64,000 bases of DNA, from contig NC_080561.1 in NCBI RefSeq assembly GCF_030253575.1, positions 4,455,001-4,519,000 of the forward strand, written 5' to 3'. This DNA comes from Rhododendron vialii (taxonomy: Eukaryota > Streptophyta > Magnoliopsida > Ericales > Ericaceae). The translations under genes were made by a program, and so were the position numbers. Positions within the stretch are counted from its first letter, which is position 1. The number at the start of each line of letters is the position of its first letter. The notes under the pieces are model-generated. The model worked only from the letters and a program-made list of their open reading frames with translations. It was not told the origin of the DNA and ran no database searches. This document shows positions 19,817 through 50,290 of the stretch, piece by piece.

Positions 19817-19831
19817 CGATTTTAGCACTTT

Positions 19832-19975
19832 TTGCCGGAAAAACGGAGTGCCTCTGTGTCGAGTGTATTTGGCCTGTTAGATTGTGTGAGTTTTTTTTTT
19901 TTTGTATGTTTCACAATTTGTGTGCGACCCAATAACCCAAATACACTCGGCACAGAAGTACACCATTTTCTGGCA
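19832..19975. mobile_element. H foldback MITE, copy in U1
   Basis: The arms of about 37 bp are inverted: GCCGGAAAAACGGAGTGCCT..GTGTATTTGGCC at the left, and CCAAATACACTCGGCACAGA..CACCATTTTCTGGC at the right. A T-run and CACAATTTGTGTGC lie between. It is a small stem-loop element without genes. Confidence 0.65.
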
Positions 19976-20091
19976 TAGACAATATTGGGTGTGATATAGT
20001 GAATCAATTAAATTTCATTTATCAATCTTGGCCGTCTCTCTGAATTCTGAAAAACATTTACCCAAATAAAAGTAGAAAATTAGTCTAAGGT

Positions 20092-20450
20092 CTATTATGT
20101 GAACTTCATAAGCCCACAAGTCTCCCTATTAATTTTGTAAGGTCTCAAGTCCATTTTAAGGTACAATAGGGTTTAGACATTTTCATAATATTTTAGGGTG
20201 CACTTTTTTATTATAGGACATGGTACTCTAGGGTAGGATAGATTATCCTAGCGTAGAGTACCCTAAGGTTTAGGTATCTTTATAGGGTTTTAGTGTGCAC
20301 TTTTCTATTATAGGAATTTAGTGGTTTAGATACTTTTAGACACTTTCATAGGGTACCCTAGGGTTTAGGTTGTGTGGACTTATGGCTTTACAAAACTATT
20401 AGGGGGACTTGTGGGCTTATGAAATATCTATAGTTGACATATCACTAAAT
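20092..20450 (+). mobile_element. T foldback element, copy in U1
   Basis: Left end GTGAACTTCATAAGCCCACA and right end TGTGGGCTTATGAAATATC are inverted. The interior has CCTAGGGTTTAGG, TACTCTAGGGTAGG and similar phrases. It is inverted relative to the MSL-intron copy. Confidence 0.6.
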
Positions 20451-21224
20451 CTCCCAACAAAAAGCTCTTTTTTTCTTAATCAACGTCAACGATGAAGAAA
20501 CTTTATGTTCATCTCAAGGCCAATTGGTAATTACTGGAGAGGTCACAAATGTTATTAAGTGGTCACTCATTCAACTCCCAAACAATGTGGGACTATATTT
20601 CCTTAAAAAATGATTCTCATTCAACAAGCTCAATTGCACCTACAAGGAATTACAACCAAAATGCAATAACGAGAACCTAATACAAACTCGGTACACAAAA
20701 GATAGTAAGGGAAGACCATCTCCAATCTTGACCCATTCTAATATCCAAATTCAAAATTTGGGCAAAAACTTCAAAAATCATATCCAATCATTTACCCAAA
20801 TCCTTCCTCATTTTGGGTTTTATCTATTTCTCTACTCAAATCTGGAACAATCCCAACCCTTTACCCATTTTTAGTTAAAGTACTTAGAATGACATTACTA
20901 AAATTTGACATTCAAAATGAGCGTGAGGATCGGAACACAACTTTAAAAAAATTCGGATACAGTTGTGTTCATAGCCGTACAACATGACCGAGTTCATGTA
21001 CACCAAACGCTTTCGAACACGATTATATCCAAAAGTTGTATTTCAAATTTGTGTTTGGCAAAAGATTGAGGCAAAGTTCTTTAACCGGATAAGAAAGTAT
21101 TATGGTTGTACCATTTGCCCTCTGATTAATCGAGTTCCCATTCATTCATTATGTTTAGGAAATATTGCACAACCACCCTGTTACTGTGTTTTATATGACT
21201 TTTAGAATCCGTGGAATTTGAGTC

Positions 21225-21352
21225 CTTGCCAACGGGCCTTTGGTCCAGCGGCATGGGAGGGAGTGGGGTCTCAAGTTCGAGTTCTACGGTCAACCGCATA
21301 TTATCTAACTATTACCAACTAAATAAAGCTACCTATGGCAGGAAAAAAAAAA
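21225..21352 (+). mobile_element. SINE-like element, copy in U1
   Basis: A tRNA-like RNA polymerase III promoter is visible: box A-like TGGTCCAGCGGCATGGG at about 21,240 and box B-like AAGTTCGAGTTCTACGG at about 21,272. An A-rich tail follows the phrase CTACCTATGGCAGG at about 21,340. This copy lacks about 25 bp present in U2 and U3 between the boxes. It is not a tRNA gene because no cloverleaf closes. Confidence 0.6.
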
Positions 21353-21837
21353 ATTCGAAGTGTTGCCGTGTTGCCCAATGGAGACTCTTTCTTTCCTTCT
21401 TGGTTCGACGGGTTACTGCCTCCTGGTTAGATTATCTTGTTGATGTTAGAGCATATATCTTCAACTCTTACTAATATTTTTTTTCTTCTAATCTGAGTAA
21501 AAACTACATTTAGTAAGGAACACTTCAATAGAGAATTGCAAATTTAAACACAAATTCAAGTAAAAACTTCATTAATAATGTTATCGTAAATTTGGGGAAA
21601 AAACAATCTCGCAAAATCTGAGTAAAAATTCGAGTTTTCCTTGATCTGAGTAGAACTTCGGCAAAACTCAATGTGGAATAAGTTTTAGCCAAAGAGTTTT
21701 ATCTCAAATTTTGAGTTTGGAAAAAAGAAGCAAGGACGAGAGATGCTCCAATCTATCAGCTCAAATTAAGAATCATTCAAAACGGTTGCACAACCTTTGC
21801 ATCACCGTCCAAGAAAGGATGACCCACCAAAAAAAAA

Positions 21838-22165
21838 AGCTAATTCACGAGGATTGTGGTGATTTAGTCTACTGATTTTGGTCAAACAAATACAATCCAT
21901 TCATTTCTTGGACAAATAGAATTCAGTGGCCCATAATACGGAGATGGGGAGATGTATATACTCGTTTGGCCTAACAATATTCAAGAGAATTATGGTGAAT
22001 TAAAAAGGTGCACCATAAAATATGGTAGAGAATTAATCTATGTCCGAAATCCTCGCAAATAAATTAATTCACCACAATCCTCGTGAATATTTTGAGGCTA
22101 AACGAATACATCTCTCCATCTCAGTATTATGGGCCACCAATCCTATTTGAGGCTAGAAATGAATG
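21838..22165. mobile_element. P foldback element in the F-box 5' flank, copy in U1
   Basis: The left arm (TTCACGAGGATTGTGGTGAT, GTGGCCCATAATACGGAGAT, GTTTGGCCTAACAATATTCA) and the right arm (TGAATATTTTGAGGCTAAAC, ATCTCAGTATTATGGGCCAC) are inverted copies over about 150 bp each, around GGTGCACCATAAAATATGG. A TATA-like TCTATAAATATACAC follows at about 22,188, as in front of the F-box copies. Confidence 0.65.
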
Positions 22166-22261
22166 AAAATTTATGTTCTCACATATCTATAAATATACAC
22201 AAACACGTACATAAAAAATTCAACTAGCTCCTAATCCTGGCAATATTTCACAATTTGGGAG

Positions 22262-22640
22262 CCTATGGAAAACCTATATTGCCACCAAAGAACTTCTGAA
22301 CGCTACATAACTATCGGATGTCCCGTGTAAGCATCTCATCGGCCCCTCGAGATCCTTGGGGAAGTTCTCACGGCTGGCAAAAATGGAGAACAATAATGAA
22401 CAGCCTCCCCAGAGGTGGTGGCGGAGAATATCGTTTCGGAACACTGCAGGCAATGATATTTAGCGTTCTCTTCACAGAGGTAACAAAATTGAGTATGGGG
22501 ATGGTAATGATCAAGAAGAGGAAAACATAGTCATGTTGGAGATTTTATTTATGTTCATGCTGGATGCTCTGGCTGTCATACCTCTGTATATGGAGCCAAA
22601 TGCGCATCCGTCACTGGAGGAAGTGGCATTGAATGCCATA
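22262..22640 (+). pseudogene. Unrecognised coding-like segment fused to the F-box flank, U1 copy
   Basis: Immediately after the F-box flank (ACAATTTGGGAGCC) the sequence diverges from F-box genes and reads a frame with MENNNEQPPQRWWRRISFR, NTAGND, interrupted here by TAG at about 22,460. It continues HRGNKIEYGDGNDQEEENIV and a hydrophobic run FMFMLDALAVIPLYM. The first part also forms both arms of the palindrome at 36 kb. I do not recognise the protein. Confidence 0.35.
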
Positions 22641-23084
22641 TAGCCTGATCAAGACCAGAATGTCTCTTCTTTTGGTCTTCTGAACTATTGAGTTTTCATG
22701 ACGAGTGACGAGAAAGCATTTGAGATTGTATCGTTTGGGACGAAAGCTTGTAATTCAAAATTACTTTGTAGTACCCATCTCAGATAACTTAAAAATGACG
22801 TATTATTTACTGCTCTTTTTGTCGCGATTTGATTATCCACTTTTGAGAATCTACAAAGAAAACATAGTCAATTATACTTTTGTAATAATCTCCGTTTTGT
22901 AAATGTCGTTGAGCGTTTATCAATACAATCTTCTCACTTAGTCAATTAGTTTGGCTTTGTCAAAATTCTTTGTAATGATCTCCGTTTTGTAAGTGTCGCT
23001 CGGCGTTTATCAATATAATCTTTTCACTTTTGACCAAAAAAAAAAAGACGCTACTAATAATCAAACTTATTGAGAATCAAGCGG

Positions 23085-23324
23085 TTACTTCTCTTGTTCT
23101 TCCTCATTCTTCTCCTGGCTCTGGGTGAGGTAGTTATTCTGGCAAACTGCTTCTTCGTGCACCTTGTCTTCAACTACCTTTGCCATGATCCAAACGTGTT
23201 TTGCTTGCTTCTTGACCATATGCCATGCGTCCTTAATGTATGTTTTCGACGAGTCGACTAGTCCTTTCGTTGCTTTAAGCCACGGGTATGTCATGATCCA
23301 ACCTGGTCGATCAATGGTGGCCAA
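23085..23324 (-). CDS. Small ORF of unknown function, U1 copy
   Basis: An open frame of 79 codons with charged, helical composition: [53 protein letters not shown], ending in a Gln/Glu/Lys-rich tail. It is kept open in U1 and U2. In U3, where it is more diverged, the same amino acids recur in two frames ([20 protein letters not shown]). I recognise no family. It may be a fragment of a host gene captured with its neighbours. Confidence 0.3.
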
Positions 23325-23348
23325 TTTGCTAAATTATGTTGTAAACAG

Positions 23349-23783
23349 AACCCAACGAGGCGGGTGCGGCTGTGGCTGGGGACGTACAAGACGGAGGAGG
23401 AGGCCGCGATTGTTTACAATAATGCCGCGCTCAAGCAGCGTGGACCAGATGCTCTGAGGCCGCCGGGTAGGGATAAAACGGAGATCAACGTGACGTCGGT
23501 CTCCGGTTATACGAATCGGGAGAGGAGTGTAATAACGTCATATCTTCTCCTACTTCGGTACTTCGGTTCAGGACTCTTTCCAATGATCGATGCCGAACCG
23601 GTTCGAGAGGCCACAGGCGAAAAGACGATACTAATAAGGATCATCAACCAGTACTTCAAACGAGGCAATGACTGCTGTGTACCGGTCGAGACGAAGACCG
23701 AACCAAGTGGTCAAACGGTTCAAGAAGTTGTTCAGTGTCGCGGTGAAACTAATCCATTACAAAATGAATGGCTAGGAAGCTAA
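23349..23783 (+). pseudogene. AP2/ERF (CRF-type) gene fragment, U1 copy
   Basis: The frame starts inside an AP2 DNA-binding domain: [35 protein letters not shown]. Downstream is a diverged [10 protein letters not shown], corresponding to the VSGYxSxEES...SSPTSVLRF region of cytokinin response factors. The N-terminal half of the AP2 domain and everything before it are absent. A frameshift follows VSGYTNRE; the alternative frame continues SPTSVL. AP2/ERF proteins bind GCC-box promoters, but this piece cannot. Confidence 0.7.
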
Positions 23784-23935
23784 AGGAGTTTGAGGAGGTG
23801 AGAAGAAGAAGAGGAGAAGGAGTTGGCCCTGTTGGGTATAGCAAGAAGGGTCATTAAGGGGGTAATGGAGTTTTTCAAAGAGATATAGGAGATGATTCAG
23901 ATTAATGAATTGAAGTCATGATCTAATTTTTGGAT
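23764..23935 (+). pseudogene. F-box 3' tail, U1 copy
   Basis: CTAAAGGAGTTTGAGGAGG, TTGGCCCTGTTGGGTATAGC and GGTAATGGAGTTTTTCAAAG are the end of the F-box copies at 5.0-5.2 and 17.0-17.2 kb. Here they are joined directly to the AP2/ERF fragment. This shows that the unit is an F-box gene whose middle has been replaced. Confidence 0.6.
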
Positions 23936-24135
23936 GAAAAATAATCCGATGGCTACAAAGTTAATAGAAAGTGATAGAATCCGTTGTAGAGGTTGTTCTC
24001 GTTTACATGCGCCTATATATTTTTAATAGAAATCGCTATGTTTTATAATATAGTTGATGTTAGATGTTTGGCCAAAACTCCTACTTCACCTTCTATGTTT
24101 TATAATATAGATGATTTTAGCACCAGAATCCTCTT

Positions 24136-24282
24136 TGCCGGAAAAACGGTGTGCCTCTGTGCTCAGTGTATTTGGCCTGTCAGATTGTGTGAGTTTTTTT
24201 TTTTTATGTTTCACAATTTGCGTGCAACCCAACAACCCAAATACGCTCGGCACAGAAGTGCACCATTTTTTCGGCATAGACG
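24136..24282. mobile_element. H foldback MITE, copy in U2
   Basis: The arms read GCCGGAAAAACGGTGTGCCT and CACCATTTTTTCGGC, slightly better paired than in U1 because of GTGTGCC at the left. Confidence 0.65.
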
Positions 24283-24387
24283 ATATCGGGTGTGATTTTG
24301 GTGAACCAATTAAAATTTCGTTTATCAATCTTGGCCGTCTCTCTGAATTCTGAAAAACATGTACGTAAATAAAAGTAGAAAATTAGT

Positions 24388-24738
24388 CTTAGGTCTATTA
24401 TGTAAACTTCATAAGCCCACAAGTCCACCTATTAATTTTGTAAGGTCTCAAGTCCATTTTAGGGTACCCTAGGGTTTAAACACTTTCATAATATTTTAGG
24501 GTGCACTTTTTTATTATAGGATAGGGTACCCTAGGGTTTAGGCACTTTTATATGGTTTTAGGTTCCACTTTCCTATTATAAAATTTTAGTAGTTTAGACA
24601 TTTTCATAGAGTTTAAGGTTTTAGACACTTTTATAGGGTATTCTAGGGTTTAGGTTGTGTTGCCTTGTGATTTTACAAAACTATTACGTGGATTTGTGGG
24701 CTTATGAAATGTCTATAATGGACTTGTAAATAAATCTC
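24388..24738 (+). mobile_element. T foldback element, copy in U2
   Basis: It has the same ends as the U1 copy (AACTTCATAAGCCCACAAGT and GTGGGCTTATGAAATGTC). The interior has GGGTACCCTAGGGTTTAGG. Confidence 0.6.
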
Positions 24739-25530
24739 CCAATAAAAAACTCTTTTTTCCCTCCTACGCCTTTTTTTTTTTCTTAATCAACGTCAATGAT
24801 GAAGAAACATTATATCCATATCAAGGCCAATTAGTAATGAGCGAAGATGTCTCAAATGTTATTAAGTGATCACCTATTCCACTCCCAAGCAATATTGGGA
24901 CTCTATTTCCTTAACAAATGATTCTCATTCAACAAGCTCAATCGCACCTACAAGGAATTACATCCAAAACGCAATAATGAGAACCAAATACACACTCGGT
25001 ACACAAAAGATAGCTAGGAAAGACCATCTCCAATCTTGACCCATATCAATATCCAAATTCAAATTTTTGGCAAAAACTTCAAAAAATCCCTATCCACTAA
25101 TTTACCCAAATCCTTCCTCATTTTGGATTTTATCTATTTCTATGCTCAAATCTGAAACAATCCCAACCCTTTACCCATTTTTAGTTAAAGTACTTAGAAT
25201 GATTACTAAAATTTGACATTCGGAATGAGCGTGAGGAACACAACTTTAAAAAAATTTGGATACAATTGTGTTCATAGTTGTACAACATGACCGATTACAT
25301 GTACACCAAACACTTTCGAACACAATTATATTCGAAAGTTGTATTTCAAATTTTTGTTTGGCAAAAGGTTGAGGCAAAGTTCTTTAACTGGAAAAGAAAG
25401 TATTATGGTTGTACCATTTGCCCTTTGATTAATCGAGTTCCCATTCATTCATTATGTTTAGGAAATATTGCACAACCACCCAGTTACTGTGTTTTATATG
25501 ACTTTTAGAATCCGTGAAATTTGAGTCCTT

Positions 25531-25682
25531 GCCAACGGGCCTTTGATCCAATGGCATGGGAGGGGGAACTACTTGTCTAGGACCAGAGAGTGGGGTCTCA
25601 GGTTGGAGTTCTACGGTCGACCGCATTACTATCTAACTATAACCAACTAAATAAAGCTACCTATGGCAGGGAAAAAAAAAAA
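25531..25682 (+). mobile_element. SINE-like element, copy in U2
   Basis: It is longer than the U1 copy. After the box A-like region (CCAATGGCATGGGAGGGGG) comes GAACTACTTGTCTAGGACC, missing in U1, then GGTTGGAGTTCTACGG and an A-rich tail. Confidence 0.55.
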
Positions 25683-26169
25683 TTTCGAAGTGTTGTCGTG
25701 TTGCCCAATGGAGAATCGTTCTTTCCTTTTTGGTTCGACGAGTTACTGCCTCCTGGTTAGATTATCATGTTGATGTTAGAGCATATATCTTCAAATCTTA
25801 CTAATATATTTTTTCTTCAAATCTGAGTAAAAACTACATTTAGTAAGGAACACTTCAATAGAGAATTGCAAATTTAAACACAAATTCAAGTAAAAACTTC
25901 ATTAATAATGTTATCGTAAATTTGGGGAAAAAACAATCTCGCAAAATCTGAGTAAAAATTCGAGTTTTCCTTGATCTGAGTAGAACTTCGGCAAAACTCA
26001 ATGTGGAATAAGTTTTAGCCAAAGAGTTTTATCTCAAATTTTGAGTTTGGAAAAAAGAAGCAAGGACGAGAGATGCTCCAATCTATCAGCTCAAATTAAG
26101 AATCATTCAAAACGGTTGCCCAACCTTTGCATCACCGTCCAAGAAAGGATGACCCACCAAAAAAAAAAA

Positions 26170-26495
26170 GCTAATTCACGAGGATTGTGGTGATTTAGTC
26201 TACTGATTTTGGCCAAACAAATACAATCCATTCATTTCTTGCGTCAAATAGAATTCAGTGGCCCATAATACGGAGATGGGGAGATGTATATACTCGTTTG
26301 GCCTAACAATATTCAAGAGAATTGTGGTGAATTAAAAAGGTGCACCATAAAATATGGTAGAGAATTAATCTATGTCCGAAATCCTCGCAAATAAATTAAT
26401 TCACCACAATCCTCGTGAATATTTTGAGGCTAAACGAATACATCTCTCCATCTCAGTATTATGGGCCACCAATCCTATTTGAGGCTAGAAATGAA
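26170..26495. mobile_element. P foldback element, copy in U2
   Basis: Nearly the same as the U1 copy, with the private change TTTTGGCCAAAC (TTTTGGTCAAAC in U1 and U3). Confidence 0.6.
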
Positions 26496-26687
26496 TGAAA
26501 ATTTATGTTCTCACATATCTATAAATATACACAAACACGTACATAAAAAATTCAACTAGCTCCTAATCCTGGCAATATTTCACAATTTGGGAGCCTATGG
26601 AAAACCTATATTGCCGCCAAAGAACTTCTGAACGCTACATAACTATCGGATGTCCCGTGTAAGCATCTCATCGGCCCCTCGAGATCC

Positions 26688-26975
26688 TTGGGGAAGTTCT
26701 CACGGCTGGCAAAAATGGAGAACAATAATGAACAGCCTCCCCAGTGGTGGTGGCGGAGAATATCGTTTCGGAACACTGCAGGCAATGATATTTATCGTTC
26801 TCTTCACAGAGGTAACAAAATTGAGTATGGGGATGGTAATGATCAAGAAGAGGAAAACATAGTCATGTTTGAGATTTTCTTTATGTTCATGCTGGATGCT
26901 CTGGCTGTCATACCTCTGTATATGGAGCCAAATGCGCATCCGTCACTGGAGGAAGTGGCATTGAATGCCATATAG
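26688..26975 (+). CDS. 95-codon open frame of unknown function, open only in U2
   Basis: The frame starts MGKFSRLAKMENNNEQPPQ, includes a basic WWWRRISFRN, an acidic YGDGNDQEEEN and a hydrophobic FFMFMLDALAVIPLYM, and stops after EEVALNAI. U1 and U3 have TAG where U2 has TAT (GATATTTATCG at about 26,788). This may be a chance loss of a stop in a relic. The N-terminal part also lies in the palindrome arms. The family is not recognised. Confidence 0.25.
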   Translation: MGKFSRLAKMENNNEQPPQWWWRRISFRNTAGNDIYRSLHRGNKIEYGDGNDQEEENIVMFEIFFMFMLDALAVIPLYMEPNAHPSLEEVALNAI

Positions 26976-27416
26976 CCTGATCAAGACCAGAATGTCTCTT
27001 CTTTTGGTCTTCTGAACTATTGAGTTTTCATGACGAGTGACGAGAAAGCATTTGAGATTGTATCGTTTGGGACGAAAGCTTGTAATTCAAAATTACTTTG
27101 TAGTACCCATCTCAGATAACTTAAAAATGACGTATTATTTACTGCTCTTTTTGTCGCGATTTGATTATCCACTTTTGAGAATCTACAAAGAAAACATAGT
27201 CAATTATACTTTTGTAATAATCTCCGTTTTGTAAATGTCGTTGAGCGTTTATTAATACAATCTTCTCACTTAGTCAATTAGTTTGGCTTTGTCAAAATTC
27301 TTTGTAATGATCTCTGTTTTGTAAGTGTCGCTCGGCGTTTATCAATATAATCTTTTCACTTTTGACCAAAAAAAAAAAGACGCTACTAATAATCAAACTT
27401 ATTGAGAATCAAGCGG

Positions 27417-27656
27417 TTACTTCTCTTGTTCTTCCTCATTCTTCTCCTGGCTCTGGGTGAGGTAGTTATTCTGGCAAACTGCTTCTTCGTGCACCTTGTC
27501 TTCAACTACCTTTGCCATGATCCAAACGTGTTTTGCTTGATTCTTGACCATATGCCATGCGTCCTTAATGTATGTTTTCGACGAGTCGACTAGTCCTTTC
27601 GTTGCTTTAAGCCACGGGTATGTCATGATCCAACCTGGTCGATCAATGGTGGCCAA
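27417..27656 (-). CDS. Small ORF of unknown function, U2 copy
   Basis: 79 codons, differing from the U1 copy by about one residue (MVKNQAKH versus MVKKQAKH). Confidence 0.3.
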   Translation of the reverse strand: MATIDRPGWIMTYPWLKATKGLVDSSKTYIKDAWHMVKNQAKHVWIMAKVVEDKVHEEAVCQNNYLTQSQEKNEEEQEK

Positions 27657-27684
27657 TTTGCTAAATTATGTTGTAAACAGAACC

Positions 27685-28129
27685 CATCAACCCAACGAGG
27701 CGGGTGCGGCTGTGGCTGGGGACGTACAAGACGGAGGAGGAGGCCACGATTGTTTACAATAATGCCGCGCTCAAGCTGCGTGGACCAGATGCTCTGAGGC
27801 CGCCGGGTAGGGATAAAACGGAGATCAACGTGACGTTGGTCTCCGGTTATACGAGTCGGGAGAGGAGTGTAATAACGTCATATCTTCTCCTACTTCGGTA
27901 CTGCGGTTCAGGACTCTTTCCAATGATCGATGCCGAACCGGTTCAAGAGGCCACAGGCGAAAAGACGCTACTAATAAGGATCATCAACCAGTACTTCAAA
28001 CGAGGCAATGACTGCTGTGTACCGGTCGAGACGAAGACCAAACCAAGTGGGCAAACGGTTCAAGAAGTTGTTCAGTGTCGCGGTGAAACTAATCCATGGC
28101 CATTACGAAATGAATGGCTAGGAAGCTAA
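27685..28129 (+). pseudogene. AP2/ERF (CRF-type) gene fragment, U2 copy
   Basis: It reads [20 protein letters not shown] and [10 protein letters not shown], then [10 protein letters not shown], closer to a functional AP2 domain than U1 at [10 protein letters not shown]. The first half of the domain is missing and the downstream frame is shifted. Confidence 0.65.
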
Positions 28130-28285
28130 AGGAGTTTGAGGAGGAGAGGAGAAGAAGAGGAGAAGGAGTTGGCCCAGTTGGGTATAGCAAGAAAGGTCAT
28201 TGAGGGGGTAATGGAGTTTTTCAAAGAGATATAGGAGATGATTCAGATTAATGAATTGAAGTCATGATCTAATTTTTGGAAGAAA
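28110..28285 (+). pseudogene. F-box 3' tail, U2 copy
   Basis: It has GCTAAAGGAGTTTGAGGAG, GTTGGCCCAGTTGGGTATAG and GGTAATGGAGTTTTTCAAAG, directly after the AP2/ERF piece. Confidence 0.55.
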
Positions 28286-28480
28286 AATAATTCGATGGCT
28301 ACAAAGTTAATAGAAAGTGATAGAATCCGTTGTAGAGGTTGTTCTCATTTACAGGCGCTTATATATTTTTAATAGAAATCACTATGTTTTATAATATAGT
28401 TGATGTTAGATGTTTGGCCAAAACTCCTACTTCACCTTCTATGTTTTATAATATAGATGATTTTAGCACCAGAATCCTCT

Positions 28481-28627
28481 TTGCCGGAAAAACGGTGTGC
28501 CTCTGTGCTCAGTGTATTTGGCCTGTCAGATTGTGTGAGTTTTTTTTTTTTATGTTTCACAATTTGCGTGCAACCCAACAACCCAAATACGCTCGGCACA
28601 GAAGTGCACCATTTTTTCGGCATAGAC
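28481..28627. mobile_element. H foldback MITE, copy in U3
   Basis: Practically the same as the U2 copy. Confidence 0.6.
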
Positions 28628-28733
28628 GATATCGGGTGTGATTTTGGTGAACCAATTAAAATTTCGTTTATCAATCTTGGCCGTCTCTCTGAATTCTGAA
28701 AAACATGTACGTAAATAAAAGTAGAAAATTAGT

Positions 28734-29084
28734 CTTAGATCTATTATGTAAACTTCATAAGCCCACAAGTCCACCTATTAATTTTGTAAGGTCTCAAGTC
28801 CATTTTAGGGTATCCTAGGGTTTAAACACTTTCATAATATTTTAGGGTGCACTTTTTTATTATAGGATAGGGTACCCTAGGGTTTAGGCACTTTTATATG
28901 GTTTTAGGTTCCACTTTCCTATTATAAAATTTTAGTAGTTTAGACATTTTCATAGAGTTTAAGGTTTTAGACACTTTTATAGGGTATTCTAGGGTTTAGG
29001 TTGTGTTGCCTTGTGATTTTACAAAACTATTATGTGGATTTGTGGGCTTATGAAATGTCTATAATGGACTTATAAATAAATCTC
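28734..29084 (+). mobile_element. T foldback element, copy in U3
   Basis: It differs from the U2 copy at a few bases (for example GGGTATCCTAGGG near its left side). Confidence 0.6.
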
Positions 29085-29875
29085 CCAATAAAAAGCTCTT
29101 TTTTCCCTCCTACGCCTTTTTTTTTTCTTAATCAACGTCAATGATGAAGAAACATTATATCCATATCAAGGCCAATTAGTAATGAGCGAAGATGTCTCAA
29201 ATGTTATTAAGTGATCACTTATTCCACTCCCAAGCAATATTGGGACTCTATTTCCTTAACAAATGATTCTCACTCAACAAGCTCAATCGCACCTACAAGG
29301 AATTACATCCAAAATGCAATAATGAGAACCAAATACACACTCGGTACACAAAAGATAGCTAGGAAAGACCATCTCCAATCTTGACCCATTTCAATATCCA
29401 AATTCAAATTTTTGGCAAAAACTTCAAAAAATCCCTATCCACTAATTTACCCAAATCCTTCCTCATTTTGGATTTTATCTATTTCTATGCTCAAATCTGA
29501 AACAATCCCAACCCTTTACCCATTTTTAGTTAAAGTACTTAGAATGATTACTAAAATTTGACATTCGGAATGAGCGTGAGGAACACAACTTTAAAAAAAT
29601 TTGGATACAATTGTGTTCATAGTTGTACAACATGACCGATTACATGTACACCAAACACTTTCGAACACAATTATATTCGAAAGTTGTATTTCAAATTTTT
29701 GTTTGGCAAAAGGTTGAGGCAAAGTTCTTTAACTGGAAAAGAAAGTATTATGGTTGTACCATTTGCCCTTTGATTAATCGAGTTCCCATTCATTCATTAT
29801 GTTTAGGAAATATTGCACAACCACCCAGTTACTGTGTTTTATATGACTTTTAGAATCCGTGAAATTTGAGTCCTT

Positions 29876-30028
29876 GCCAACGGGCCTTTGATCCAATGGC
29901 ATGGGAGGGGGAACTACTTGTCTAGGACCAGAGAGTGGGGTCTCAGGTTGGAGTTCTACGGTCGACCGCATTATTATCTAACTATAACCAACTAAATAAA
30001 GCTACCTATGGCAGGGAAAAAAAAAAAT
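29876..30028 (+). mobile_element. SINE-like element, copy in U3
   Basis: Same length and A-rich tail as in U2, supporting the recent common origin of these two left halves. Confidence 0.55.
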
Positions 30029-30518
30029 TTCGAAGTGTTGTCGTGTTGCCCAATGGAGAATCGTTCTTTCCTTTTTGGTTCGACGAGTTACTGCCTCCTG
30101 GTTAGATTATCATGTTGATGTTAGAGCATATATCTTCAAATCTTACTAATATATTTTTTCTTCAAATCTGAGTAAAAACTACATTTAGTAAGGAACACTT
30201 CAATAGAGAATTGCAAATTTAAACACAAATTCAAGTAAAAACTTCATTAATAATGTTATCGTAAATTTGGGGAAAAAACAATCTCGCAAAATCTGAGTAA
30301 AAATTCGAGTTTTCCTTGATCGATCTGAGTAGAACTTCAGCAAAACTCAATGTGGAATAAGTTTTAGCCAAAGAGTTTTATCTCAAATTTTGAATTTGGA
30401 AAAAAGAAGCAAGGACGAGAGATGCTCCAATCTATCAGCTCAAATTAAGAATCATTCAAAACGGTTGCACAACCTTTGCATCACCGTCCAAGAAAGGATG
30501 ACCCCAAAAAAAAAAAAG

Positions 30519-30843
30519 CTAATTCACGAGGATTGTGGTGATTTAGTCTACTGATTTTGGTCAAACAAATACAATCCATTCATTTCTTGCCTCAAATAGA
30601 ATTCGGTGGCCCATAATCCGGAGATGGGGAGATCTATATACTCGTTTGGCCTAACAATATTCAAGAGAATTGCGGTGAATTAAAAAGGTGCACCATAAAA
30701 TATGGTAGAGAATTAATCTATGTCCGAAATCCTCGCAAATAAATTAATTCACCACAATCCTCGTGAATATTTTGAGGCTAAACGAATACATCTCTCCATC
30801 TCAGTATTATGGGCCACCAATCCTATTTGAGGCTAGAAATGAA
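30519..30843. mobile_element. P foldback element, copy in U3
   Basis: Both arms are present. Private changes include GAATTCGGTGGCCCATAATC and GAGATCTATATAC. Confidence 0.6.
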
Positions 30844-30939
30844 TGGAAATATATGTTCTCGCATATCTATAAATATACACAAACACGTACAAAAAAAATT
30901 CAACTAGCTCCTGATCCTGGCAATATTTCACAATTTGGG

Positions 30940-31317
30940 AGCCTATGGAAAACCTATATTGCCGCCAAAGAACTTCTGAACGCTACATAACTATCGGATG
31001 TCCCGTGTAAGCATCTCATCGGCCCCTCGAGATCCTTGGGGAAGTTCTCACGGCTGGCAAAAATGGAGAACAATAATGAACAGCCTCCCCAGAGGTGGTG
31101 GCGGAGAATATCGTTTCGGAACACTGCAGGCAATGATATTTAGCGTTCTCTTCGCAGAGGTAACAAAATTGAGTATGGGGATGGTAATGATCAAGAAGAG
31201 GAAAACATAGTCATGTTGGAGATTTTCTTTATGTTCATGCTGGATGCTCTGGCTGTCATACCTCTTTATATGGAGCCAAATGCGCATCCGTCACTGGAGG
31301 AAGTGCTGATCAAGACC
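30940..31317 (+). pseudogene. Unrecognised coding-like segment, U3 copy
   Basis: The equivalent of 22,262-22,640, with the TAG at about 31,142. It lacks the GGCATTGAATGCCATATAGC phrase found in U1 and U2 just before the MITE insertion site. Confidence 0.35.
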
Positions 31318-31324
31318 AGAATGT

Positions 31325-31773
31325 CGAGTTCGGCTCCTCTTCAATTATTGGAGAGAATACTCTCTCCAATCTCAGCCCATAAAAAATTTTTACGATCTTA
31401 TGTCAATGATCGAAATAGTTCATTTTATTTTTCTCGTTGAGAACATGAAGTATGCCAAAAATCAAGTTTATTGGACATCATTAGATATGATTTTGAAACA
31501 CATTAGAACACATTATCTTGCAAAATATAAGATTGCAACATTAGAACAAAACCCCTTTCTAATTTTTTTCAATATAAATTTGTTTCGAAATCATATCAAA
31601 CGATAATTGATCAAAATAATTTTTGGCATGCTTGATGCTCTTAGTGCATTAAAAATTATGAACAATTCCGATCATTGAAGTGTGATTTAAAAAGTTTTTC
31701 CCTAGCCGGAATTGGAGAGAGTGTTCTCTCCAATCCCTTTCCATTTAAAGAGATTGGAGAGGAGCCGGGCTCG
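31325..31773. mobile_element. MITE inserted only in U3, with target duplication
   Basis: The ends are CGAGTTCGGCTCCTCT and AGAGGAGCCGGGCTCG, inverted. An inner pair GGAGAGAATACTCTCTCCAA / TTGGAGAGAGTGTTCTCTCC deepens the stem. AGAATGT stands on both sides (31,318-31,324 and 31,774-31,780). U1 and U2 carry the empty site AGACCAGAATGTCTCTTC once. The 7-8 bp duplication suggests a hAT-type element. Confidence 0.85.
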
Positions 31774-32112
31774 AGAATGTCTCTCCTTTTGGTCTTTTGA
31801 ACTATTGAGTTTTCAAAATAACTTGGTAGTATCCATATTAGATAACTTAAAAATAACGTATTATCTACTGCTCTTTTTGTTGCGATTTGATTATCCACTT
31901 TTGAGAATCTACGAAGAAAACATAGTCAATTATACTTCTGTAATAATCTCTGTATTGTAAGTGTCGTTGGGCGTTTATCAATACAATCTTCTTACTTAGT
32001 CAATTAGTTCGGCTTTGTCCAAATTCTTTGTAATGATCTTTGTTTTGTAAGTACCGTTGGACATTTATCAATACAATCTTCTCACTTTTGACCCCAAAAA
32101 AAAAAGACGCTA

Positions 32113-32425
32113 CTAATAATTAAACTTATTGAGAATCAAGAGATTACTTCTCTTGTTCTTCCTCGTCCTTCTCCACGTTCTGGGTGTGGTAGTTATTCTC
32201 TCAAATTGCTTTTTCGTGCACCTTGTCTTCAACTGCCTTAGCCATGATCCAAACGTGTTTTGCTTTCTTCTTGACCATATGCCACGCGTCCTTAATGCAT
32301 GTTTTCGACGAATTGACTCGTCCATTCGTAGCTTTAAGCCACGTGTATCTCTGAAATATAGCTAATTCAGCCAACTCATTGTTGCCACGTGTCATGATCA
32401 CACCAGATCGATCAACGGTGGCCAA
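32113..32425 (-). pseudogene. Small ORF of unknown function, U3 copy, frameshifted
   Basis: It has the start MATVDRSGVIMTRGNNELAE, a longer N-terminal part than U1 and U2 (which lost LAEFQRYT-like residues), and [20 protein letters not shown]. The frame then shifts. The longer version suggests that the ancestral protein was larger. Confidence 0.3.
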
Positions 32426-32448
32426 TTTGCTAAATTATGTTGTAAACA

Positions 32449-32900
32449 GAACCCGATGAGGCGGGTGCGGCTGTGGCTTTGGCTGGGGTCGTACGAGACG
32501 GGGAGGAGGAGGCCGCGATTGTTTACGATAACGCCGCGATCAAGCTGCGTGGACCTCATGCTCTGAGGCTGCCGGGTTGGGACTTGGGATAAAACGGAGA
32601 TCAACGTGATGTCGGTCTCCGGTTATACGAGTCGGGAGAGGAGTCTAATAACGTCATATCTTCTCCTACTTCGGTGCTGCGGTTCAGGACTCTTTCCAAT
32701 GATCGATGCCGAACTGGTTCGAGAGGCCACGGCGAAAAGACAATACGAATAAGGATCATCAACCAGTACTTCAACGAGGCAATGACTGCTGTGTACCGGT
32801 CGAGACAAAGACCGAACCGATCGAGTGGGCAAACGGTTCAAGAAGTTTGTTCAGTGTCGCGATGAAACTAATCCATTACGAAATGAATGGCTAGAAAGCT
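32449..32900 (+). pseudogene. AP2/ERF (CRF-type) gene fragment, U3 copy
   Basis: CGGGTGCGGCTGTGGC, then a small duplication (TTTGGCTGGGG) that breaks the frame. AAIKLRGPHAL is next, then in the following frames [10 protein letters not shown] and [12 protein letters not shown]. This copy shows the SSPTSVLRF motif of CRF proteins most clearly, and supports that assignment for all three. Confidence 0.65.
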
Positions 32901-33065
32901 AAAGGAGTTTGAGGAGGAGAAAAATGGAGAGAAGAAGAAGAGGAGAAGGAGTTAGCCCAGTTGGGTATAGCAAGAAGGGTCATTAAGGGGGTAATGGAGT
33001 TTTTCAAAGAGATATAGGAGATGATTCAGATTAATGAATTGATGTCATGATCTAATTTTTGGAAG
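32890..33065 (+). pseudogene. F-box 3' tail, U3 copy
   Basis: GCTAAAGGAGTTTGAGGAGG, AGTTAGCCCAGTTGGGTATA and TAATGGAGTTTTTCAAAGAG follow the AP2/ERF piece, as in the other units. Confidence 0.55.
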
Positions 33066-33222
33066 AGAAATAATTAGATGACTACAAAATTAATAAAAAG
33101 TGATCGAACCCATTGTAGAGGTTGTTCTTGTATACATGCGCCTAGATATTTTTAACAGAAATTGCTATGTTTATAATATAGATAATGTTAAATATTTGGC
33201 CAAAACTCCTACTTCACCTTCC

Positions 33223-34500: not shown

Positions 34501-34712
34501 TTTATGACTAAGTGTACAAACCCCACATAAATATGTGATTGCGGAATGTTCCGAAGCACCAAGCGACGGTGCTCCTGAAATACTGAATAATTTCTTGAAA
34601 GAGAGAGGGGGGGAGAGTTTTTCGTTTGACCGCAGGTATTACGTTAGAGTCGTTGGGAGAGGCTGAGGTGGTTTTAGAGTACCAAATATAGCTAGGTAAC
34701 GATTTTAGCACC
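34501..34712. repeat. R repeat, fourth block
   Basis: It has CACATAAATATGTGATTGCG, TGTTCCGAAGCACCAAGCG, a GA-rich run, TTTTTCGTTTGACCGCAGGT and GTGGTTTTAGAGTACCAAAT, in the same order as upstream of both MSL copies. Confidence 0.6.
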
Positions 34713-34713
34713 G

Positions 34714-34866
34714 AATCCTCCGGGAAAAACGGTGTGCCTCTGTGCCGAGTGTATTTGGACTCGTCAGATATTTGTGTGAGTTTTTTTTTTATGTTTTAAA
34801 TTTATGTGCTATCCAACAGCCGAAATACACTAAGCATAGAGGCAAACCGTTCTTCAGACACAGGAT
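34714..34866. mobile_element. H foldback MITE, fourth-block copy
   Basis: Left arm GGAAAAACGGTGTGCCTCTG with GAGTGTATTTGG. The right arm CGAAATACACTAAGCATAGA is more decayed than in U1-U3. Confidence 0.5.
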
Positions 34867-35035
34867 CTCGAATGACCAATTAAATTTCATTTATTCCGAT
34901 CTCTGAATTCTGAAATAATGTTACCCAAATAAAAGCTCTTTCTCCCCTCTTAATCCTTATGTTTATCGTCAATTATCCTCATTAAACATGCCCAACTGCA
35001 CATAACAAGGAATTACATCCAAAATGCATCCTCCT

Positions 35036-35452
35036 GAATAAACTAATTCACGAGGATTGTGGTGAATAAGTCTACTGATTTTGGTCAAATGAATACAATC
35101 TATTCAATTCTTGCCTTAAATAGGATTTGGTGGCCCACAAACAGAGATTGGGGAGACGTATTCGTTTGGCCTAACAATATTCAAAAGAATTGTGGTGAAT
35201 TTAAAAGGTGCACCATAAAATGTGGTAGACAATTAATGTATGTCCAAAATCCTCGCGAGTAAACTAATTCGCCACTATCCTTGTGAATATTGAGAGGCCA
35301 AACGAATACTTCTCCCCATCTTAGTATTATGGGCCACCAAATCCTATTTGAGGCTAGAAATGAATGACAATTTTTGTTCTTGCGTATATATATAAATATA
35401 TACAAACACACAAACACGTACATAAAAAATTCAACTAACTCCTCTTGACAAT
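35036..35452 (+). promoter_or_regulatory. F-box 5' flank with complete P foldback and TATA box
   Basis: The two P arms (35,036-35,200 and 35,245-35,368) are followed by TATATATAAATATATAC at about 35,386. ATG follows at 35,453. It is the best preserved F-box promoter region of the cluster. Confidence 0.5.
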
Positions 35453-35750
35453 ATGTCACAATTTGGGAGCTTGCCCTTAGAAACTGTGGTTGATATCCTT
35501 GCAAGACTATCAATCGACACGGACATTCTATTGATGGTGATTATAGCCTTTATTTCTTCCTTGCCTATTCAATTGCATTCGAAAGAGATTGCAGAAATAT
35601 TTCCTGGTCTGCTTATTCTTGTCATTTTTTGCAGTGCTCTGAAACCTTTGAAGAGCTTAAGCGTCTCCAATTCCCGACGGACATTAGGTACTTCAGCGTC
35701 AAGACTTCTTGTAACGGGGTATTGTGCCTCCTTCGTTGTCACTATATAGG
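35453..35750 (+). pseudogene. F-box protein pseudogene 3, truncated by an inverted duplication
   Basis: ATG at 35,453 opens MSQFGSLPLETVVDILARLS, then the region of RCRCVCKSW through INKQL is missing and the frame continues DTDILLM. ALKPLKSLSVSNSRRTLG and SRLLVTGYCASFVV parallel the other copies (in shifted frames). The gene ends at the edge of the palindrome core at about 35,750. Its last 60 bp is also present, inverted, at about 36,680-36,741. Confidence 0.7.
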
Positions 35751-36741
35751 TCGTGAAGTGGGCAAAAAAAATGGATAAAAGTGAAACGGAGAGAGAATCG
35801 GCCGATATGGGTGTGAATTTTTTGTATCGCCGGTATAGTAGTACCGGAGGACCCAAAAACCCCTACGTAGCGGCCGATATGCTATGTAGCGGCCAATATT
35901 CAAATCGTTGTTATTGCAGGGGAATCTTTGTTATTGTCGAGGAATCATTGTTACAATGGTACGAACCTATGCATGACCTATATTGCTGCTAAATAACTTC
36001 TGAAAGCTACATAACTATCCGATGTCCCTCGTAAGCATCTCATCGGCCCCCTCAAGATCCTTGGGGAAGTTCACTCGTCTGGCAGAAATGGAGAATGCAA
36101 ATGAACAGCCTCCCTAGAGGTGGTGCCGGAGAATACCATTTCAGAAGATTGCAATGGTAATGATCGTTATCTTCATGGAGGTAGCGAAATTGGCAATGGC
36201 AATGGAGGCAACGATCATTACTGTCGCCATTGCCAACTTTGTTACCTCTAGGAAGAGAACAATCGTCACCATTGCAACCGAAACGGTATTCTCCGCCACC
36301 ACCTTTGGGGAGGCTGTTCATTAGCGTTCTCCATTTTTTCCAGACAAGTGAACTTCCCCAAGGATTCCGAGGGGGGGACGATGAGATGTTTACATGGGAC
36401 ATTCGATAGTTATGTAGCATTGAGAAGTTATTTGGCGGCAATATAAGTTATGCATAGGCTCATACCATTATAACATAGATTCCCTGACAATAACAAAGAT
36501 TCCCCGGCAATAACAAGAATTTAAATATCGATCACTACGTAGTGTATCGACTACTAACGTAGGGGCTTTTGGATCCTCCGGTACCGCTATACCCCATTTT
36601 ACCGGCGATACTAAAAATTCACACCCATATCGGCCGATTTCCTCTCTGTTTCACTTTTATCTTATTTTTTTGCCCGCTTCACAACCTATATAGTGACACT
36701 AGAGGCACAGTACCTCGTTACAAGAACTCTTAACGCTGAAC
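35690..36741. repeat. Imperfect palindrome of about 1 kb with F-box sequence in both arms
   Basis: The arms of about 515 bp meet near 36,210. Pairing marks from outside in: CTTCAGCGTCAAGACTTCTT with AAGAACTCTTAACGCTGAA; GTCACTATATAGG with CCTATATAGTGAC; GGCAAAAAAAATGGATAAAA with ATCTTATTTTTTTGCC; CGGCCGATATGGGTGTGAAT with CACCCATATCGGCCG; ATCCTTGGGGAAGTTCAC with GAACTTCCCCAAGGAT; and the ACAGCCTCCC region. The outer 60 bp is F-box gene, the next about 240 bp is the repeat with an end at 10.9 kb, and the inner part is the unknown segment found in U1-U3. Transcribed, it would fold into a long hairpin. Confidence 0.85.
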
Positions 36742-36824
36742 ACTTGGTGCAGACGAGCGAGCACGCATCTGCGCGTTTTTAGGGTTTGGGTGGGGGGGCT
36801 CCACAGCCCAATAAGGTTAGAAAT

Positions 36825-37212
36825 TGTTGGACAATTTGTTTTTGGGTATAAATACACTTGTTATGCCTCTTATTATGTGTGAGAGCAAATATTAGGTATT
36901 GGGGTAGGGTTTGAGAGATTTGCCTCTTTGTTTTGGCTTTTGGTAGAAGAGTTCTACGGACTATTCTTTGTTGCCCATTGTGCATTCGTATTTGTTTAGT
37001 GAAGGCGCCATCAATCGACTACCCGTGGACTACGCTTACATCCCAAAGTAAGGCCGAACCACGTATATTTGTGCGTGTCTCTCTCCTTTTGTTTGTTTTT
37101 TATTTCCTTCTCTCATGTTTGGTTTGATTAGTTTGGTTTGCTTCCCACATCTGTTTCATTCTCCGATTCGATATTCATAATCACCGTCTGTTTGTTCGGC
37201 TTCTGCACAACA
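36825..37212 (+). mobile_element. Ty1/copia LTR
   Basis: It begins TGTTGGACAATTTG and ends TTCTGCACAACA. Directly after it, at about 37,215, is TTGGTATAAGAGCAT, a primer-binding site complementary to initiator methionine tRNA with one change (usual TGGTATCAGAGC). Its GTGGACTACGCTTAC and GGCCGAACCACGTA phrases are typical of plant copia LTRs. A TATA-like GTATAAATACAC lies at about 36,846. Confidence 0.8.
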
Positions 37213-37530
37213 AATTGGTATAAGAGCATAGGTTTCTCAACTAGGCTTCGATTTGTTCTACTTGGTTGTTTGGATTTTTGGGTTTTAGAAAAATTGGGTT
37301 GAAGATGTCTGAGTAATCATCCAAGAAATCGGCAACAACTGGGTCCGGCACCGGTTACGTGGTGAGGTCTTTGGTTTCAAACACCAATTTGAAGTTAAAA
37401 AATTTGATGGGACAAACATCTTTGGTAGGTGGCAATGTGAAGTTTAGGATGTTTTGGTCCAACGGAGGTTGAATTTTGATTTGGATGACAAATCAGAGTC
37501 CATTGGTGTAAAAATTCCTTCAAAAGCATA
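37213..37530 (+). pseudogene. copia gag start, truncated
   Basis: Behind the primer-binding site there is a broken leader and then, at about 37,380-37,510, a frame with the gag-type signature KKFDGTNIFGRW followed by VQRRLNF. A stop (at KA*) and loss of similarity follow at about 37,530. No pol region or second LTR is present, so the element is a 5' remnant. Confidence 0.65.
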
Positions 37531-37589
37531 AAGAGTGTCGTCAGCGCATTTTAGCACATTTTTTTACCATTATATAAGTATGTTCACAT

Positions 37590-37970
37590 AGACTTTTAGC
37601 ACACGGACTTTTAGCACATAGATCGCGCAAAGATTCGTGTGTGGGGCTCACTCCAAATCCCACACAAATAATTCAAGCCGTTCATTAAATGTAAAGCATT
37701 TTTTCAAAGGCCCACGAGAAAAATCAGCTTAATCCAATACCTATAGATGCTCGATTCAATCATCTAACTTTTCATTATCCTGAAATCTGAATGAAAAGTT
37801 AGATGATTAAATCAAGCACCTATAGGTATCGAATTGAGCTGATTTTTCGCTAAGACCCTTGAAAAAATATTTTACATTTAATGAACGACTCGGATTATTT
37901 GTATGGGACCTATAGTGGGCCCCACATAACAATCTGTGTGCGATCTGTGTGGAATTTTCTATGTGGGTAG
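37590..37970. mobile_element. Foldback MITE (AAAATCAGCTTAAT family), copy 1
   Basis: Two arms of about 165 bp: CGTTCATTAAATGTAAAGCA with TTTTACATTTAATGAACG; AAAATCAGCTTAATCC with a diverged GAATTGAGCTGATTTTT; and TCAATCATCTAACTTTTCAT with ATGAAAAGTTAGATGATTA, around a loop of about 15 bp near 37,778-37,792. No gene is present. Confidence 0.75.
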
Positions 37971-48040: not shown

Positions 48041-48998
48041 AAAAGGCTTGGAAATCGCAAGGGTTCTGTTGCAATTCATGTTTCTTTATGATGATGGAGA
48101 CTTTCGCCGCTCAGCTCCGTAGTCGGACCCATTTAGGCCTCTCTTATTTGCTTCCACGCATCGTAATTTATCTTTTCAATGATAATGGAAACCTCCATTG
48201 TTTTTTCAAGTACGCAACGGCCTGCTAACATAAGGGGTTAAGTGTCAGAAAGGGAGGGAGGGGGATTGACCCTAAATCACATAATGCGCGTGCGCGTGAG
48301 GGTGTGAGACCGCAAGCGTGAAAGCGTTTTTCAAAAACATCTCAACTCACTACAATTCGCGAGTGCGATGATTGAGAGCGCGAGCACAGAGCAAAGATTG
48401 AAAGAGGGTTTGTTTTGGGCTTAATTGTATTGGGTTTCTCCAATTATCTGGGCAATTAGGCTTTTTAGGCGTTGGATCTTAATTGTTTGGGTTTGTTCCA
48501 TTTTATTTGGGCTTTTAGGCCTTTTCGGTGTTTGGGTTTGTCCCATTAGAGTTTTCTTTGATTGGTTGGTACCTTGCCAATCGAAGGTTTGGGTCTCGGA
48601 CTCGGCATATTTGTCGTTCTCTTTGTCCTGTTAATCTTTGTACCTTGTTCAAAGATCAATGAAATTTTTTCGCTGTTCAAAAAAAAAATTTTGAAAGCGG
48701 GTGCCAAGGCCATTTTGACGAATTATGTGACTATGGATCGACCAATACCAGGTTTCAATGATTATTCCTCCCTCTCCATATGAAAACGTAACCCACTTCT
48801 TTTCTTCATCTTTTTTTTGTTTTGGTTAGAAAACCTGGCATAGTATTAAACTAAAGGTACATTGTTCTGAGGTATGAAACCTTTAATTATCAGCCTAGAA
48901 TGTTGGGATTCTCCCATGTGCGTGAAGCACAGGATAATTTTCCCTGTACATGTCCACTGTTTTGTTTTTCTTTCTTCTGCCCATCTTGTAGAGTTGAG
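48041..48998. other. Intergenic, with a retroposon-like A-tail
   Basis: 48,290-48,690 has repeated GGGTTTGTTCCATTTTATTTGG-like phrases. It ends ATCTTTGTACCTTGTTC, AAAGATCAATGAAATTTTTT and an A-run at about 48,680, as in the 3' end of plant LINEs. No gene is present. Confidence 0.35.
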
Positions 48999-49205
48999 TT
49001 TTGTTCACCCTCGACTTAAGAGGGTGAACATTACCCTCCTTCTTATTGGTTGAAATGATGTGGATCCCATCACAAAGTGATGTCATGCTTACCAAAAAGT
49101 GTATTGCATGGTAAGCATGACATCACTTTGTGGTGGAGTCTACACCATTTCAACCAATAAGAGAGAGGGTAATGTTCACCCTTTTTTAAAGAGGGTGAAC
49201 AAAAT
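48999..49205. mobile_element. Foldback MITE with TTTTGTTCACCCTC ends
   Basis: The arms of about 95 bp: TTTTGTTCACCCTCGACTTA at the left and AAAGAGGGTGAACAAAA at the right. Inner pairs are CTTATTGGTTGAAATGATG with ACCATTTCAACCAATAAG, and CACAAAGTGATGTCATGCTT with AAGCATGACATCACTTTGTG. The loop is about 20 bp. It is the cleanest small hairpin in the window. Confidence 0.85.
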
Positions 49206-49878
49206 TGCACTCCATATTGTATTGAGGGAGCTGAGAGAGTGGGGCGTGCGGAGGGGGTGCCGGTTGTGGCTCCCCCGGACTGTGCCGCCGGAGTGGGAGT
49301 GCACAATGTGAGGGAGAGAGAGAGGAGAGTGCGGGGGCCGGTTGTGACTTCCCAGAGTGGAACCGGTTGTGGTTCCTGGAGAGTCTTTGTAGCTTGTATA
49401 TATGTGAGTTATATACATAGTAATTTTTTCTCTCAATCTATCCGTGTGTGTGTTTGTGTGCACAGTAGAGGTGTGGATTCGGGGTTGGGTCTCGACCCAT
49501 CATAAAATTTATTCAGTAGGCATAGGGTGTAAGAGATTCGAATAAGGACTTCCATCAACGCTGGGATTGCCATTGCAAGCCCCATCATTGTGTAACTCGA
49601 CTAATCGCTTTCTGTTTCTTGCAGTGCATTTTATGTCGCATGAATTTCCATTCTTCACCATGAGCTACGATGTATTTGGCTATAGAGGTGCTAATCAACC
49701 AAACAAGCCAAATACAGTATTGCTTGAGTTGGCTAGCTCAATAGTCAATTCCTTAGTACACGTGTTCAAGCTCGGCTCGAGCTTCAGAATTTTTGTGATC
49801 GTGATAAGTTTTACTTGTGATATATATGAGGTAATCTCGAGCTTTCAAGTCTTTGCTTAAGCTCGTGACATTCGAAAG
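49206..49878. other. Intergenic, no gene seen
   Basis: The first 250 bp is G-rich (GGAGGGGGTGCCGGTTGTGG and a second GCCGGTTGTGAC). The rest is mixed. A (GT)n-like run lies at about 49,443-49,460. No frame or repeat could be assigned. Confidence 0.35.
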
Positions 49879-49879
49879 C

Positions 49880-50290
49880 GGGGGGCTGCTGTCCCCAGGG
49901 GACACAGCGTGCTACTCTCTCGATTTCTTGGCTCACTCCGGTCTCGCTCCGATGATCGGAATTGTTCACTTTGTAGAGCTCGTCGAGTAGAACAACTATG
50001 CAAAAAATCAGCTTAATTGGATATTATTAAGTGCCTGATCGGAGTCCATATAACTCTCTGTCTATGGGTTACAGTGGATTTGATCCAGTGTTTCGGATCC
50101 ATTCTTTTCAAGATAAAAAGGTTCCAATCAAGCACTTAATGATAATCCAATTAAGCTGATTTTTTGCATAATTATTCTACTCAATGAGCTCTACAAAGTG
50201 AACGATTCCGATCATCGGAGCGAGACCGGAGTGGGCCCAGAAATCGGGCACAACAGCACGCTGCTGTCCCCAAGGGGACAGCGCACAAAC
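49880..50290. mobile_element. Foldback MITE (AAAATCAGCTTAAT family), copy 2
   Basis: GGCTGCTGTCCCCAGGGGAC pairs with GCTGCTGTCCCCAAGGGGAC at the ends (partly self-complementary). ACTCCGGTCTCGCTCCGATG pairs with CATCGGAGCGAGACCGGAGT. GCAAAAAATCAGCTTAATTG pairs with CCAATTAAGCTGATTTTTTGC. The loop covers about 50,040-50,108. The core AAAATCAGCTTAAT is shared with the element at 37.6 kb. A poly-C tract follows at 50,290-50,310. Confidence 0.8.

Follow-up and report, generated by a model that had tools for sequence, protein, structure and literature searches.

Recent MIRNA loci and non-conserved local inverted duplications of protein-coding genes, as characterized in the passages of Fahlgren 2007 (PMC1790633) cited here, carry an inverted gene piece and a family promoter and accumulate mispairs by drift; drift and death are described there as perhaps the commonest fate of inverted-duplication loci. 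At the soybean I locus, a 27-kb CHS cluster, an inverted repeat of the family gives rise to measured siRNAs and possibly acts in trans on intact relatives (PMC3804491). In Teosinte Pollen Drive of maize, the long non-coding Tpd1 hairpin has a protein-coding target elsewhere, and both its 22-nt siRNAs and the cleavage of that target have been demonstrated (PMC11390486). The palindrome described here, P1, lies in an F-box cluster of Rhododendron vialii, in a window of 64,000 nucleotides (C5:4455001-4519000), and shares these structural traits: an inverted piece of a gene family, the promoter of that family, drifting mispairs and intact relatives on which it could act in trans. It differs from the loci of Fahlgren 2007 in having composite, mostly non-F-box arms and no miRNA-like island, from the soybean repeat in that F-box sequence makes up only ~59 bp of each arm and from Tpd1 in that its arms are ~86% alike; unlike all of these, P1 is known from sequence alone. 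Among the literature titles listed, none dealt with this locus.

P1 was recovered in a DNA search of the genome as an inverted repeat at 35692-36740 (E 1.3e-290), in which BLAST merges into a single inverted match the ladder of inverted pairs that a repeat search placed over the same interval. The initial annotation had described two arms of about 515 bp folding on each other around a tiny loop near 36,210. The arms are real and, in a global alignment, 85.7% identical when only ungapped positions are counted (436 matching, 73 mismatched and 31 gapped columns; 52 of the mismatches are transitions and 21 are transversions). The turn lies where it had been placed, but the structure is effectively loopless, the arms turning at GATC. 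A transcript would indeed form the long hairpin claimed, with a predicted minimum free energy (MFE) of -718 kcal/mol versus -257 to -284 kcal/mol in 10 mononucleotide shuffles. The arms are not too mismatched to pair: when 35420-36825 is folded in silico, the right arm pairs with 460 of the 521 bases of the left arm. The longest perfect duplex between the arms is 27 bp, within part X, and the arm alignment contains no perfectly paired 21-bp stretch of F-box sequence. P1 therefore has the long self-complementary arms of a hairpin-siRNA (hpRNA) locus, if imperfectly.

Each arm has three parts (Table 1): F-box coding sequence of ~59 bp at the outer end, then X, which is 212 to 223 bp long, and an inner part of ~250 bp. 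The segment of the F-box relics at 4.1 and 15.7 kb, said to be present at both outer ends, was found there with 76 to 92% identity: the 4.1-kb relic (4094-4192) matches 35656-35750 (82%) and, inverted, 36685-36740 (83%), and the 15.7-kb relic (15556-15804) matches 35510-35743 (76%) and, inverted, 36702-36737 (92%). The left-arm fragment is 90% identical to the intact gene A (C5:4395960-4396021). The description of P1 as a palindrome carrying F-box sequence is correct for both ends, but only for ~59 of the 523 bp of each arm, about 11%. X has matches at all eight other genomic places fetched (L056-L063), at seven of which the match begins at the same base ±1, and the inner ~250 bp matches three tandem units, all of them non-palindromic.

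Table 1. Features of P1 and its surroundings (window positions)
Feature	Positions	Strand	Remarks
F-box-type promoter	35037..35470	+	TATA about 35385-35402; ATG 35453
Foldback within promoter	35102..35365	.	75%; unit promoters have it too
F-box 5' remnant	35453..35691	+	~85 bp absent relative to second palindrome locus
Left arm of P1	35692..36214	+	F-box sense
F-box coding fragment, left arm	35692..35750	+	contains ..SVKTSCNGVLCL.., read by eye; relics and gene A match
X	35751..35962	+	opens with dispersed repeat of roughly 130-160 bp
Inner part, left arm	35963..36214	+	homologue of tandem-unit leader and first codons
Centre of P1, GATC	36213..36216	.	zero spacer; non-palindromic units have TGATCA here
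Right arm of P1	36215..36740	-	inverted copy; antisense to F-box if transcript is rightward
Inner part, right arm	36215..36461	-	inverted
X, inverted copy	36462..36684	-	from arm alignment
F-box fragment, right arm	36685..36740	-	inverted copy
LTR-like stub	36829..37214	+	ends TGTTG..CAACA then TGGTATAAGAGC, by eye; common to second locus
Non-palindromic inner-arm counterpart, unit 1	22259..22512	+	
Non-palindromic inner-arm counterpart, unit 2	26591..26844	+	
Non-palindromic inner-arm counterpart, unit 3	30939..31192	+	

The tandem unit is 4.3 kb long and present three times at 19.8-33.2 kb (19828-33221). In it, an F-box promoter is joined directly to the inner sequence, followed by a broken AP2-like stretch (AP2 E 0.0071, 17.1 bits, under the cut-off of 33.3). 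In units 1 to 3, the inner sequence is single and runs past TGATC into other sequence, and GGTAATGATCAAGAAG stands at the turning point of P1. P1 itself sits in a diverged fourth unit, of which 34522-34935 and 35037-35470 match the corresponding unit parts. A search with the inner part of unit 1 gave eight matches, all in units 1 to 3, P1 and a second palindrome, P2; an intact donor gene was therefore not found. Units 1 and 2 are ~99% alike over the 502 bp compared, and the tail of the units resembles, by eye, the C-terminus of F-box gene A. Elsewhere in the window, two open stretches on the minus strand (11169-12137 and 18819-19433; FHVPPGxFFKK..) are related, with DNA 86 to 90% alike, and may resemble a mechanosensitive-channel-type protein.

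The F-box promoter that had been reported directly upstream, with a TATA and a foldback and reading into the palindrome, was found. It is 85 to 86% identical to the three tandem-unit copies and 87% identical to a stretch that starts upstream of gene B and runs into the gene. The TATA stretch and ATG context of genes A and B and of the 0.6-kb relic are retained in P1 and P2; unit 2 has ATT where the promoter ATG is expected. Neither AATAAA nor ATTAAA occurs on the plus strand of 35401-36900. The stub to the right of P1 is, we assume from its ends, LTR-like. At gathering score, Rfam gave 0 matches in 34.0-38.5 kb, which rules out a known Rfam RNA as the identity of P1.

In the genome searched (532.6 Mb, 13 contigs), P2 was the one further full-length match (C5:3849308-3850345, reverse strand, 89%), and among the at least 69 matches there was no full-length copy besides P1 and P2. 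When 29 kb around P2 was compared, homology extended from window position 34929 to 37804, a shared block of ~2.9 kb (promoter, F-box start, palindrome and LTR-like stub) whose two copies lie ~640 kb apart; ~85 bp present at the P2 locus is missing at P1, and there are smaller indels too. Since ~0.76 kb of flank on the left and ~1.06 kb on the right are common to both, the whole block was copied and not the palindrome alone, and transposition of the palindrome itself is ruled out. P2 shares the centre and the ends of P1. The K2P distance between the two loci is 0.093 in the left flank, 0.087 in the palindrome and 0.135 in the right flank.

Two palindromes make four arms available for comparison. 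Their alignment has 541 columns, and all counts are from the 490 ungapped ones, for two copies in one genome. Invariant columns numbered 378, 41 had the like-arm pattern and 58 a change in a single arm (P1 left, 10; P1 right, 15; P2 left, 19; P2 right, 14); the remainder were 6 crossed columns, 6 with three states and 1 in which the two arms of a single palindrome had changed jointly. Arm-to-arm gene conversion is ruled out by the 41 like-arm sites versus 1 within-palindrome site. For a rightward transcript, half of the 44 transitions after the duplication lead to a G-U pair and half (22) to a broken pair, and all 14 transversions break the pair; transitions between the P1 arms are split 26 versus 26. 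With 1 joint change versus 58 single-arm changes, the evolutionary sign of kept pairing that would support an hpRNA locus was not seen. Nor was the F-box segment conserved better than other arm parts (single-arm changes in 6 of 56 columns, compared with 17 of 190 in X and 35 of 244 in the inner part). The longest run invariant in all four arms was 18 nt, a length reached by 21.5% of 2,000 column shuffles, and no conserved 21-nt, miRNA-like island of the kind expected of a MIRNA was present across the four arms of these two copies from one genome. These tests give no sign of selection for hairpin pairing; they have little power where selection is weak or recent, and they do not bear on present transcription. 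Unconstrained arms do not prove that transcription or siRNAs are absent, and a hairpin locus that is young can be active in the absence of long-term selection.

In an unrooted tree of the inner region, left arms, right arms and units each grouped together (100, 86 and 100, respectively). In this tree (35963-36461 compared with P2), the stem of the left arms was longer than that of the right arms (0.083 versus 0.038), and the two arms may therefore have had different histories. Substitutions were also sorted by cytosine context. Between the P1 arms, transitions were most frequent at CG, with 27 of 96 CG, 8 of 60 CHG and 28 of 296 CHH C/G sites (21/96, 8/60 and 23/303 in a different alignment of these arms). 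Between P1 and P2, the corresponding values were 27/162, 6/108 and 31/610 in the palindrome, 9/49, 6/23 and 16/350 in the left flank and 30/121, 8/71 and 52/581 in the right flank. Because the palindrome is not clearly richer than its flanks in CHG or CHH change, no scar of RNA-directed methylation was seen in the P1/P2 substitutions.

It had been proposed that the hairpin could silence related F-box genes elsewhere and might explain why all local copies have decayed. Two intact F-box genes, however, persist in the cluster upstream of the window: A at a distance of ~59 kb (C5:4395620, 487 amino acids) and B at ~35 kb (C5:4419557, 428 amino acids). In Pfam, both exceed the cut-offs for F-box and for FBA_1. 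The two proteins agree at 322 of 426 aligned residues, with a dN/dS of 0.42. A DNA search with gene B gave at least 24 matches, on C5 near 3.85 and at 4.40-4.49 Mb (the family described here) and on C9 and C1; those on C9 (2.33-2.40 Mb) are a more distant set, and the one on C1 is 45 bp. The C9 region (L047-L054) is a second F-box cluster, in which two or more long open frames occur (435 and 426 amino acids). At L033 (C5:4406000-4411500), a broken F-box copy, C, is followed by a long open frame of 691 amino acids on the minus strand, with an apparent likeness to a copia-type polyprotein.

Candidate target sites were scored with a TargetFinder-like scheme written for this analysis (a penalty of 1 per mismatch and 0.5 per G-U pair, twice as high at positions 2 to 13). 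Of 508 21-mers of the P1 right arm, 21 scored ≤4 on gene A, the lowest at 0.5, and 12 on gene B, so that both genes carry the near-perfect 21-nt matches to the outer arm that had been sought; 16 did so on copy C, 17 on the 4-kb relic, 19 on the 15-kb relic and none on the 0.6-kb relic. On units 1 to 3, the numbers were 104, 116 and 116. The antisense of the P1 left arm gave 35 of 501 on A and 24 on B, and its counts for units 1 to 3 were 92, 87 and 95; in the sense control, none of 501 windows scored even ≤5. For P2, 22 of the 508 right-arm windows had a site on A and just 2 had one on B, and the left-arm antisense gave 31 and 20 of 487. In the six C9 loci tested, no target site was found for the F-box portions of the P1 arms. 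Intact genes with matching sites, as an hpRNA locus would have, are present in A and B; such sites are expected from shared descent. Judged from these scores, A and B could in theory be silenced, and the tandem units would be the larger target. The silencing claim holds as far as near-perfect sites exist, but pairing shows no maintenance. That the hairpin caused the local decay is not supported, since A and B, which bear target sites, are intact in the same cluster under a dN/dS of 0.42; that all local copies have decayed is false.

P1 might be a live hairpin-siRNA locus under an F-box promoter that lowers A and B through siRNAs from its outer 59 bp. The TATA/ATG promoter shared with the intact genes, the strong predicted fold, the right-arm sites on A and B with an empty sense control and the existence of two linked copies all speak for this. 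Shared descent alone yields complementarity, however; the F-box share of the arm is small, more 21-mers match units 1 to 3 than the genes, the right arm of P2 has hardly any sites on B, the C9 loci tested have none and pairing is not under visible selection. We therefore regard a live locus as unlikely. A more elaborate proposal makes the linked pair of palindromes RNAi modifiers that the cluster has itself produced: hairpins that arose from dead family members, stand under a family promoter and tune A, B and the units, with selection on pairing too recent or weak to show. The third palindrome (see below) would then be another outcome of the same inversion-prone family. This proposal seems to us quite improbable. 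A proto-MIRNA of inverted-duplication origin that drifts toward one processed miRNA would fit the cited passages of Fahlgren 2007 (PMC1790633) in its gene-family origin, promoter and accumulating mispairs. With the 21-nt island absent and Rfam empty over 34.0-38.5 kb, we give it only a very slim chance.

A third palindrome was found at C5:2172960-2174546 (L065:3961-5547; inner 1.6 kb, inverted repeat 82%), with outer arms at L065:3297-3971 and 5744-6400 (79%), the whole covering L065:3297-6400 (C5:2172296-2175399). It shares ~100 to 120 bp of the inner sequence at 72 to 76%, including the ATGGAGAA at its start, and the weak matches at C5:2173626-2173728 and 2173770-2173888 fall inside it. This relative of the inner part would suit a foldback transposon or large MITE, or an inversion-prone gene family of which P1 is one of several palindromes, as would the other inverted repeats of the window (31347-31734, 35102-35365, 37615-37951, 48991-49212 and 49888-50282). 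Apart from the promoter foldback at 35102-35365, these are MITE-like, 222 to 395 bp long and 67 to 81% complementary. However, P1 and P2 do not end in unrelated flanks, as a foldback element or MITE would: the arm end of P1 lies within continuous F-box sequence, and the flanks of P1 are shared with P2. There was no other full-length copy among the at least 69 matches, and the search with the inner part of unit 1 had no matches outside the units, P1 and P2. In the third palindrome, the turn lies on the opposite side of the inner sequence, which makes it a separate event; it may reflect a donor family prone to inversion or chance. Altogether, P1 is very unlikely to be such an element or one palindrome of an inversion-prone family. 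GATC is a common restriction site, and its position at the centre of P1 could point to an assembly or library artefact; the arms differ by ~14%, and a diverged copy with the same centre and ends exists elsewhere, which rules out misassembly and leaves the chance of any artefact negligible.

In our judgment, P1 is probably an old inverted duplication in a decayed member of the F-box/AP2-pseudogene cluster, drifting and at most an incidental source of siRNAs. A composite stretch, in which F-box scrap is followed by a dispersed repeat that had inserted there and by the beginning of the next unit, would have been copied head-to-head at the self-complementary TGATCA, through two broken ends or a switched template. 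F-box homology is unbroken across the left arm boundary, and P1 was therefore made in place and not inserted; since the units read TGATCA at the turn of P1, this site may have seeded the head-to-head junction. Later, the ~2.9-kb block that contains the palindrome together with its promoter and the LTR-like stub was evidently copied, in one direction or the other, so that two palindromes now lie 640 kb apart; since then, as the four arms show, changes have accumulated independently. If the promoter still works, a long imperfect hairpin RNA would be made, and some siRNAs could arise as a by-product and not as a maintained regulator. Against drift stand the lower divergence of the palindrome than of the right flank (0.087 versus 0.135), the promoter landmarks kept in both copies and the near-perfect target sites; the third palindrome, with its relative of the inner sequence, is not predicted by a one-off accident and also counts against this explanation. 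More than one order of events would fit the divergences, which are 0.17 to 0.22 between the arms in the inner part and 0.14 between the promoters of P1 and the units.

P1 is a worked case of how the decay of a tandem cluster yields hairpin-capable loci beside intact family members. Its duplicated copy, P2, lets evolution test the pairing, and the outcome is a drifting hairpin. The case also urges caution, in that a palindrome plus a promoter does not suffice to infer function.
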